DNA of 32,737 nt, from assembly GCA_017302435.1 (NCBI GenBank), contig JAFLDL010000051.1:1-32737 (forward strand), read 5' to 3'. This document shows, piece by piece, positions 1,590-3,839 of this stretch. A model generated the notes under the pieces. That model was not told the DNA's origin. It worked only from the letters and a program-made list of their open reading frames with translations, and did not search any database. Both the position numbers and the translations under genes were made by a program. Within the stretch, counting starts at the first letter, position 1. Each line of letters starts with the position of its first letter. Source of the stretch: Candidatus Accumulibacter necessarius. GTDB taxonomy: Bacteria > Pseudomonadota > Gammaproteobacteria > Burkholderiales > Rhodocyclaceae.

Positions 1590-2756
1590 CTAGAGACCGG
1601 CGTCTGCCCGCAACGCCGCTGCCTTGTCAATGGCCTCCCAGGTGAACTCGGGTTCGTCACGGCCGAAATGCCCGTAGGCGGCAGTCTTGCGGTAAATCGG
1701 GCGCAACAGGTCGAGTGACTGAATGATGCCCTTCGGACGCAGATCAAAGTGCTTGCCGATCACTTCGACGATCACTTCGTCGCTGACGCGACCGGTGCCG
1801 AAGGTGTTGACCATCAGCGAGACAGGTCGGGCAACGCCGATAGCGTACGCCACCTGCACTTCACAGCGGTCGGCCAGACCCGCAGCGACGATGTTCTTGG
1901 CCACGTAACGCGCAGCATAGGCAGCCGAGCGGTCGACCTTGGACGGGTCCTTGCCCGAGAAAGCGCCACCACCGTGCCTTGCCGCGCCACCATAGGTATC
2001 CACGATGATCTTGCGGCCGGTCAGACCGCAGTCGCCGTGGGGGCCTCCGACCACGAAACGCCCGGTCGGGTTGACCAGGTAGCGGGTGTTGGTAGCCAAC
2101 AGGTGCTTTGGCAGTACGGGCTTGATGACCTCCTCGATGATGGCTTCCGAGATCTGGATGTGTGATACGTCCGGATCATGTTGCGTCGAAACGACGATGG
2201 TGTCGATGGACACTGGCTTGCCATCAACATACCTGACGGTGAGCTGGCTTTTCGCGTCCGGGCGCAACCAGGGCAGGCGGCCGTCGCGGCGTACCTCGGC
2301 CTGGCGCTGCATGATCCGGTGCGCATAATGAATCGGTAGTGGCATCAGCGCCGGGGTTTCATTGCAGGCGTAGCCGAACATCAGTCCCTGGTCGCCCGCA
2401 CCCTGGTCGAGATCGATCCCCTGGCCCTCGTTTACCCCTTGCGCGATATCCGGCGATTGACGGTTGATTGCTGTCAGAATGGCGCAGCTCTTGTAGTCGA
2501 AACCTATTTCGGAGTTATCGTAGCCGATGCGACGAACGGCTTCCTGTGCGATTTCGCGATAGTTGATGTGTGCTTTGGTGGTGATTTCGCCCGATATCAC
2601 CACCAACCCGGTCGAGACCAGGGTTTCGCAGGCGACGCGCGCGGGCGGATCGTCGGCCAGGATGGCGTCGAGAATGGCATCCGATATCTGGTCGGCAACC
2701 TTGTCCGGATGGCCCTCGGAAACCGATTCCGAAGTGAATAGGTACTCTTTGCTCAC
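1590..2756 (-). CDS. metK: S-adenosylmethionine synthetase
   Basis: MetK makes S-adenosylmethionine from methionine and ATP. The 388-residue product opens with [19 protein letters not shown], the standard MetK start including the ATP/methionine-binding GHPDK motif, and contains the loop motif [12 protein letters not shown]. Length agrees with the family (~384). The frame stays open upstream to 2870, but those 38 extra residues are low-complexity and lie in the leader and terminator, so a GTG start at 2756 is chosen. GGAG sits 10 bases upstream (2767-2770 on the plus strand). The gene has its own promoter and a structured leader with an intrinsic terminator, which suggests regulation by premature termination. 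The HD-GYP gene follows on the same strand. Confidence 0.96.
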
Positions 2757-2770
2757 GCTAAGTTTGCTCC

Positions 2771-2810
2771 AAAAAAAACCCCGAAACGGTCGCGTGGCCG
2801 GCTTCGGGGT
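2771..2810 (-). terminator. Intrinsic terminator in the metK leader (candidate attenuator)
   Basis: Read on the minus strand, ACCCCGAA and TTCGGGGT form an 8-bp stem around a GC-rich 17-base loop, followed directly by eight T residues. It ends only a few bases before the GGAG of metK and lies downstream of the metK promoter. Its position between promoter and gene argues for an attenuator rather than the end of another transcript. What controls it is not visible. Confidence 0.75.
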
Positions 2811-2893
2811 TCGAGCAGACGACGCTTTAGCAGTATTTGGGGCCAGTCCGTGGCTCCCTCCGCCCTGCAAGTTGTCTTGATTAACTCGGCGGA
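2811..2893 (-). promoter_or_regulatory. Structured metK 5' leader, candidate unidentified riboswitch
   Basis: About 83 nt lie between the predicted transcription start near 2893 and the attenuator. On the minus strand the segment has GCAG...CTGC and GGGC...GCCC arms that can form one interrupted stem around a purine-rich loop (GGAGGGAGCC), followed by a GCTAAAGC segment. It has no start codon giving an obvious leader peptide. I could not fit it convincingly to the SAM-I, SAM-II or SAH riboswitch consensus from memory. Placement before a SAM synthetase and a terminator makes a SAM- or methionine-responsive element plausible, but that is inference. Confidence 0.4.
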
Positions 2894-2899
2894 TGGATA

Positions 2900-2929
2900 A
2901 TTATAGTTTTTCTTCGTTCGGCTGGTCAA
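2900..2929 (-). promoter_or_regulatory. Sigma-70 promoter for metK
   Basis: On the minus strand TTGACC (2924-2929) and a perfect TATAAT (2900-2905) are 18 bases apart, predicting a start near 2893. The same AT-rich core could serve the opposite strand weakly, with TTGATT at 2877-2882 and ATTATA at 2900-2905, spaced 17 bases, facing the acyltransferase gene. Confidence 0.75.
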
Positions 2930-2975
2930 AACTTCTGACCGCCCTTTGCCAACTTTTTCACGAACGGATTGCTGC

Positions 2976-3839
2976 GTGATCACCCTGTCCCGCATTCTCA
3001 GCTGTTTGCCGCTCGCGTGGCTGCATGCGCTTGGCGCACTGCTTGGCTGGCTGGCCTGGCTGCTGTCGGCCACCTACCGCCGGCATATGCGCGAAAACAT
3101 GCGGTTGGCGCTCGGTGAGGCGGAGGCCAGGCGGGTACGGGCGATGGCTATCGGTGAAGCGGGCAAGGGCGCACTCGAATTGGTAAAGATCTGGTTGCGG
3201 CCGCTTGGCGAGACGGCTGCTCGTGTCGTCGAGGTGTCCGGCTGGGAACTGGTTGAGGCAGCCTCCCGCCATGGCAAGGGAATCCTCTATCTGACGCCGC
3301 ACCTCGGTTGTTTCGAGATTACGGCACAGTATCTGTCTACGCATGCACCGATCACTGTTCTCTACCGGCAGCCTCGCCAGGCCTGGCTGCAGGCCCTGAT
3401 CGAAGCTGGCCGGGCGCGACCACAACTCCATTTGGCCGCCGCCGATTTGTCCGGCGTACGCAGCCTGCTCAAGGCACTAAGGAGAGGCGAAGCGGTTGGC
3501 ATGCTGCCCGACCAGGCACCCAAGGCAGGCGAAGGACGCTGGCTCGATTTTTTTGGCAAACCGGCGTATACGATGACTCTGGCCGCGCGACTGACCGAGA
3601 GCGGGGCCGCCGTGATCATGGTCTGGGCGGAGCGCTTGCCCGCTGGCGCGGGTTACCATTTTCGCCTGCAGGAGCCGACGCAGCCGATCCGCGGCAGCAT
3701 CGAGGAGCGTGCGCAGCAGATCAATCACGAGATCGAGCAACTGGTTCGCCAATGTCCAGCGCAGTATCTATGGGGTTACAACCGCTACAAGGGGCGTGGC
3801 CGGGTGCTGCCTGTCCCGGAAGAGGGTGGTCAGGGGTGA
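2976..3839 (+). CDS. LpxL/HtrB-type lipid A acyltransferase family protein
   Basis: The product (287 residues from the GTG at 2976) matches the LpxL/LpxM/HtrB family that transfers an acyl chain onto lipid A at the inner membrane. The N-terminus is the usual hydrophobic anchor (LHALGALLGWLAWLL), followed by the family-typical YRRHMRENMRLAL. The catalytic His-x4-acid motif appears as TPHLGCFE, and MLPDQAPKAGEG is another conserved block. The frame can be extended to a TTG at 2946, but family members begin about where the GTG lies. It is the first gene of the rightward LPS block and stands 43 bases before waaG. Whether it makes a secondary lipid A acylation or another acyl transfer cannot be told. 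Confidence 0.85.
   Translation: MITLSRILSCLPLAWLHALGALLGWLAWLLSATYRRHMRENMRLALGEAEARRVRAMAIGEAGKGALELVKIWLRPLGETAARVVEVSGWELVEAASRHGKGILYLTPHLGCFEITAQYLSTHAPITVLYRQPRQAWLQALIEAGRARPQLHLAAADLSGVRSLLKALRRGEAVGMLPDQAPKAGEGRWLDFFGKPAYTMTLAARLTESGAAVIMVWAERLPAGAGYHFRLQEPTQPIRGSIEERAQQINHEIEQLVRQCPAQYLWGYNRYKGRGRVLPVPEEGGQG

Follow-up and report, generated by a model that had tools for sequence, protein, structure and literature searches.

A candidate SAM-II-like riboswitch in the leader of betaproteobacterial metK

The metK gene of the window (the whole 32,737-nucleotide stretch of DNA that was analyzed) is preceded by a conserved RNA leader with a pseudoknot core. On comparative sequence evidence, we give roughly a three-in-four chance that this leader is a divergent, uncatalogued SAM-II-like riboswitch that turns metK off at high SAM. 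SAM-dependent shutoff of metK would allow these bacteria to make less SAM whenever it is abundant. According to the available text of Leyn et al. (2014), betaproteobacterial metK was under no known methionine regulator, and their own search for one failed (PMC4239095); the element is a candidate answer to the missing metK regulator for many Betaproteobacteria. A transcription-start study of B. cenocepacia in which leaders were checked against Rfam described a SAH riboswitch before an adenosylhomocysteinase gene, and its available text mentions no SAM element (PMC4603805). Among the titles and abstract openings listed, with subscription papers, preprints, and supplementary alignments outside this coverage, we found no earlier report of a SAM-II-like RNA before metK.

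The metK leader and its parts

The initial annotation had listed a TATAAT promoter, ~137 nt of leader, a hairpin followed by eight T, GGAG, and metK; all are present in this order on the minus strand. The promoter has 11 of 12 consensus matches and is a near-consensus sigma-70 promoter, and the two strands together hold 2 promoter-like sites compared with a mean of 0.1 in shuffles. Transcription probably starts near 2893, which would give a leader of 137 nt (2893 to 2757). The leader strand folds more stably than its shuffles do (z of -2.22; 3 of 200 shuffles equally stable). Its features are as follows.

2900 to 2929, minus strand: promoter TTGACC-18-TATAAT (-35 at 2929-2924, 18-nt spacer, -10 at 2905-2900)
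2888 to 2893, minus strand: P1 5′ strand UCCGCC, covarying with 2864-2859
2881 to 2887, minus strand: third strand GAGUUAA, with G2885 in place of U8 of SAM-V and the U of the Rfam SAM-II consensus
2874 to 2876, minus strand: GAC, possible P2a 5′ strand, complementary to 2823-2821 and nearly invariant
2865 to 2870, minus strand: UUGCAG, P2 5′ strand, whose GCAG pairs with 2833-2830, with covariation
2859 to 2864, minus strand: P1 3′ strand GGCGGA, with covariation
2839 to 2858, minus strand: P3, an optional local hairpin of variable length
2826 to 2833, minus strand: CUGC (P2 3′ strand) and UAAA, with U2829 equivalent to U47 of SAM-V and the As to A48-A50
2821 to 2823, minus strand: GUC, possible P2a 3′ strand
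2813 to 2825, minus strand: switching strand GCGUCGUCUGCUC, containing the anti-Shine-Dalgarno (anti-SD) strand (2820-2813)
2792 to 2805, minus strand: conserved block GAAGCCGGCCACGC, which may pair with 2825-2813 as an anti-terminator
2771 to 2810, minus strand: terminator, with stem ACCCCGAA (2810-2803)/UUCGGGGU (2785-2778) and then eight T (2778-2771)
2767 to 2770, minus strand: Shine-Dalgarno sequence (SD) GGAG, with which the anti-SD strand can pair
1590 to 2756, minus strand: metK, with a GTG start (2756-2754)

The hairpin ahead of the eight T has arms ACCCCGAA/TTCGGGGT. A terminator scan returned no entry at this hairpin, probably because the scan permits loops of 3 to 8 nt only. By eye, an alternative pairing that involves GCAGGGCG and CGUCUGC is conceivable. 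On the plus strand, an ORF at window positions 2946 to 3839 begins behind the metK promoter and diverges from it; by eye, it resembles a lipid A acyltransferase.

The leader core is a covarying pseudoknot

The core is an H-type pseudoknot made up of P1 and P2, as in SAM-II. Two pairs of arms had been drawn in the initial annotation: GCAG/CTGC is real and forms the P2 pseudoknot helix, while GGGC/GCCC belongs to a variable local hairpin and is not conserved. This hairpin region (P3) varies in sequence and length among relatives and is missing in those with a linker of 4 to 8 nt.

Covariation was scored in alignment A2, which holds 88 sequences, 31 from relatives and 57 found with a DNA pattern, so that the letters fixed in the pattern are constant in these 57 by choice. 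Standard pairs fill 97.5% of the 879 P1/P2 cells. Changes on both sides of a pair occur in 126 cells, compared with 42.8 ± 10.2 in 500 shuffles and with 2 to 15 after sliding of the partner strand; the P1/P2 covariation score is 0.360 versus 0.149. The most variable P1/P2 pairs fall outside the pattern letters. Two further counts lie inside the shuffle range: pairs with a double change (5 versus 3.8; reached by 56 of 500 shuffles) and further pair types (14 versus 12.7; reached by 58 of 500).

Alignments A1 and A2 show no variation in the UUGC and GCUAAA core (57 of the 88 A2 rows having been selected with UUGC in the pattern) or in GCTAAAG, which had been singled out from the window as conserved-looking. 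One locus, L074, is an exception to the core letters and reads UUUC/GAUAAA. The putative P2a strands GAC and GUC are complementary; since their letters are nearly invariant, they yield little covariation evidence.

The core resembles SAM-II and SAM-V

The elements of the core follow one another as P1, third strand, UUGC, P1, optional P3, and GCUAAA, which is the order of SAM-II and SAM-V, and the site letters of these riboswitches (UU, UUGC, and GCUAAA) stand at equivalent places. In SAM-V, as described in the available text of PMC6061858, the SAM adenine pairs with U47, to which U8 is bonded, the sulfonium lies beside a U20:A48.U9 triple, and A50 holds the amino-acid end. All of these contact letters have equivalents in the metK core except U8, which is replaced by G. 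The base in place of SAM-V A18 is C, as in the Rfam SAM_alpha consensus.

With SAM-II (RF00521, SAM_alpha), the metK element shares the pseudoknot, the third strand, UUGC, GCUAAA, and possibly P2a, and it precedes a SAM gene, in keeping with the methionine or SAM genes found downstream of SAM-II. It differs in that its third strand reads GAGUU and not GAUUU (three U), as well as in its optional long linker, its anti-SD platform, and its position before metK. The 2014 survey, in its available text, placed SAM_alpha before metY, metA, metX, hom, metC, and metW and in Rhizobiales and Rhodobacterales only (PMC4239095). The accessible part of PMC2704228 places SAM-II in Beta- and Gammaproteobacteria as well as in Alphaproteobacteria; its occurrence beyond the Alphaproteobacteria is thus not new.

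SAM-V, known from marine bacteria, has the same core, a P3 hairpin between P1 and P2, and an SD-masking translational output, as far as the available texts describe it (PMC6061858, PMC2704228). It masks the SD itself with a 2-bp P2a, adjoining the aptamer, whereas in the metK element a separate strand and a hairpin intervene and the SD lies one hairpin away. The SAM/SAH riboswitch (RF01727) is likewise a short pseudoknot RNA before metK and, in the parts of the reports available, is given for Rhodobacterales only (PMC2864571, PMC7367207).

Rfam models do not recover the element at their cutoffs. The Rfam check suggested for the leader gave no SAM or SAH family match in the window: at gathering cutoffs the whole window yielded tRNA only, and at an E value of 10 the region from 2600 to 3100 yielded five weak matches, none to a SAM or SAH family. 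Twenty loci of relatives gave nothing at the gathering cutoff. Among 7 metK elements given to cmscan, 2 reached 20 to 21 bits with SAM_alpha and 5 had no SAM_alpha match at an E value of 10; none reached the SAM_alpha gathering cutoff of 36. The best, at 21.4 bits (E value of 0.003 in a small search), was the short-loop relative L101, to which the entire SAM_alpha model aligns, placing GAGUUAA against GAUUUGa and matching CUUGCA and GCUAAAG. SAM-V matched none of the sequences given to cmscan, and neither SAM/SAH, SAH, nor any other Rfam SAM class matched the window or the scanned elements. The initial annotation had proposed an unnamed or divergent RNA class for control by methionine or SAM. 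Conservation, covariation, and the match to the SAM-II/SAM-V core argue for a divergent class through which SAM would act back on metK; an unnamed fold is disfavored, as the leader appears to form a SAM-II-like pseudoknot that the Rfam models miss. The Rfam SAM-II model would then overlook a large branch.

The element precedes metK across many genomes

Conservation in related genomes, which had been named as a check, reaches far past the terminator. Of 150 relatives, 97 match the leader DNA at an E value of 0.01, among them every one of the 28 genomes in the genus, and in 92 of these 97 the element lies directly upstream of metK (90 by motif pattern and 2, L062 and L066, by eye, where the motif is readable with small changes). 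As for the other five, the contig ends ahead of the gene in L092, and the match precedes another gene in L114, L120, L125, and L126.

A 20-base piece of the leader, written as the DNA pattern GCCGAGTTAA-N1-8-GACAACTTGC, was found in at least 120 stretches of public genomes, at least 111 of them before metK (tblastn). The remaining 9 of the 120 listed matches were either too near the stretch end (5) or before another gene (4). By eye, L256 among these nine precedes metK, six (L243, L264, L266, L278, L288, and L318) precede a short gene whose product begins MYDC, and L233 and L262 were left without a call. The MYDC gene also replaces metK behind a metK-type element in L114; the copy tested (L278) has no Pfam match. 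The recognizable genus names among the listed pattern matches (80 titles) are betaproteobacterial and include Burkholderia, Cupriavidus, Ralstonia, Bordetella, Massilia, Thauera, and Dechloromonas.

R1, a covariance model built from 52 sequences of the core, matches all 28 genomes in the genus, 262 of 399 genomes of the order at an E value of 0.01, and 141 of 369 genomes of the class at an E value of 0.1, the class-level matches including sister elements before other met genes. Twenty-nine loci of the order (L332 to L360) were read, and 28 precede metK (the exception being L359); L332 to L334 repeat L063, L064, and L073, leaving 25 of the 28 in a separate count. The motif is absent from the metK upstream regions read in five order genomes (L136 to L140) and from second, more distant metK copies, 58 to 60% identical, in two genomes of the family (L134 and L135).

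A pocket base differs in the metK type

The metK type differs from SAM-II and SAM-V at one pocket base, a change of U to G in the third strand. With loci found by a GAGTTAA pattern left out, G occurs in 85 metK elements (83 scripted; L056 and L094, which the motif script misreads from the upstream sequence, by eye) and U in one, L074, which the script does not recognize. Elements before metX, metZ, metH, and metF carry U in 13 cases and G in 3 (two in the metF tandem L185 and one before metZ, L427). The motif pattern misses metX elements with a G-G third P2 pair. Ten other metX leaders that it missed read GATTTGA by eye. G is also found in metK elements of two other families (L180 and L183; L182). 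The pocket G thus goes with metK without being exclusive to it, and the change offers a natural pocket variant for the study of SAM recognition by RNA.

This near-separation of G and U between metK and the methionine biosynthesis genes would also be expected if the same fold had moved its specificity from SAM to another ligand, such as SAH or another SAM relative. We consider such a shift quite improbable: the equivalents of both sulfonium-side U residues and of the adenine-pairing U are kept in 88 of 88 A2 sequences (57 of them chosen by pattern, with letters partly fixed), and the occurrence of G in metF and metZ elements means that G does not define the ligand.

A proposed platform for termination and SD masking

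Downstream of the aptamer come GCGUC, the anti-SD strand, a hairpin, and the SD. The anti-SD strand reads UGCUC in relatives of the window and has other sequences elsewhere. Of 208 distinct leaders, 183 have an anti-SD:SD duplex at least as stable as -8 kcal/mol; mismatched partners reach this value in 60.7% of cases and shuffled partners in 41.3%. At least five T in a row within the last 40 nt were found in 74 of the 208 leaders (48 of 87 relatives and 21 of 102 pattern loci). Premature termination, which had been put forward as the output, is thus not the general one: a U-run is present in 74 of 208 leaders, whereas SD masking by a strand close behind the aptamer is possible in 183.

Frequently the anti-SD strand is followed by a block like GRAGCYGGYNACGC (81 distinct examples, collected with a pattern chosen for the block), which complements GCGUC together with the anti-SD strand. 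Block duplexes in 200 leaders averaged -16.2 kcal/mol for matched, -14.8 for mismatched, and -12.5 for shuffled partners, and L224, L271, and L280 have other letters downstream yet keep the pairing at the block. Pairing of the block with GCGUC and the anti-SD strand is moderately supported. In growing transcripts of the window leader, ~11 block pairs were predicted at 104 to 110 nt and none at 116 nt, by which length the terminator stem has fully formed; masking of the SD appeared at 128 nt. At least five block pairs formed in 173 of 225 leaders cut at the block end versus 18 at full length.

We propose that SAM would bind within the P2 triple helix and that, in the bound state, P2 and P2a would hold GCGUC, which would prevent the adjoining anti-SD strand from remaining paired to the conserved block. 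The terminator would then form, and transcripts that escape it would have a masked SD, so that metK is off. At low SAM, the growing RNA would first pair GCGUCGUCUGCUC with GAAGCCGGCCACGC, which would delay terminator and mask and leave metK on. Relatives without a U-run would use the mask alone. The switch would be kinetic. Equilibrium folding of 223 leaders gave equal SD access with the aptamer free (0.30) or withheld (0.29), in programs that ignore the pseudoknot, so the switch must be either kinetic or wrongly modeled; such folding was therefore rejected as evidence for switching. RNAalifold on 155 platform tails gave no useful consensus, the alignment being too gappy.

The lack of a switch in equilibrium folding would also suit a structure that is read by a protein or a small RNA, or one that acts on transcript stability, and many leader structures are protein bound. 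We regard this reading as very improbable, as the conserved letters are the SAM-contacting letters of SAM-II and SAM-V and sister elements stand before metX, metZ, metH, metF, and metN. Leader-peptide attenuation at the terminator, to which the hairpin with eight T ahead of the start and a TTG at 2870, open and in frame with metK, could point, receives almost no weight: the leader has no ATG, linker lengths among relatives are not multiples of three and thus do not keep a frame, P1 and P2 covary as RNA, and most leaders lack a U-run. Attenuation of this kind was disfavored for the missing ATG and the frame.

Sister elements and tandem arrays

R1 gave five matches in the window's own genome: metK (79.8 bits), an element at C4:19203-19257 (52.5), elements before metX (28.3) and metH (20.8), and a fifth match (12.9) that we took for chance. 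SAM_alpha scores the metX and metH elements at 31.6 and 23.5 bits, both below the cutoff, and does not match the C4 element. Besides that of metK, the SAM-II-like elements of this genome (G000) are as follows.

C2:5422-5477: before metX
C18:65461-65515: before metH
C4:19203-19257: before an unnamed ORF

The C4 element reads GAUUUAA and has no clear gene start behind it.

The metX leaders of relatives have the same core, GAUUUGA, and a hairpin with a T-run. All 11 given to cmscan match SAM_alpha, at 26 to 38 bits against the cutoff of 36, two of them above it.

L144-L146, L148, L150, L151, L156, L161, L163, L165, L142: metX leaders matching SAM_alpha

Leyn et al. (2014), in their available text, described metXZ as a betaproteobacterial pseudoknot element upstream of metX or metZ (PMC4239095). 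The metX leaders are probably this element, a match made to the published description and not to an alignment. Since leaders that fit the metXZ description score with SAM_alpha, the orphan metXZ element looks like SAM-II. The metK element appears to be its sister: the metXZ third strand has U and not G (GAUUUGA...CAGCUUGC versus GAGUUAA...CAACUUGC), and the platform differs.

A wider reading is that metK elements are a third branch of the SAM-II/SAM-V fold, in which a pocket base changed for a sensing task of its own (affinity or ligand) and a three-way platform acts on transcription and translation; the branch would be common in Betaproteobacteria, and its relatives would supply the second member of tandem arrays upstream of nonmethionine genes, including that for a bpMoxR-type ATPase. 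We hold this broader proposal to be rather doubtful.

Tandem pairs of such elements lie before genes without a known methionine link in L125, L126, L128, L174, L176, L278, L318, and L422. The first element reads GAUUUG in 7 of the 8 (CAAUUUG in L422) and has a terminator-like hairpin; the second carries G in four and U in four. Ten proteins encoded behind such elements were compared with Pfam: 9 had no bpMoxR match and 8 had no Pfam match at all. The available text of a paper on MoxR-vWA conflict systems contains no occurrence of "riboswitch" (PMC7159879). An HD-domain ORF lies near the L126 tandem and may not be the first gene. The gene behind the L176 tandem encodes a bpMoxR domain (PF20030; 31.1 bits, cutoff of 27) and thus a bpMoxR-type ATPase, and similar ATPases are encoded behind single elements in L120, L172, and L426.
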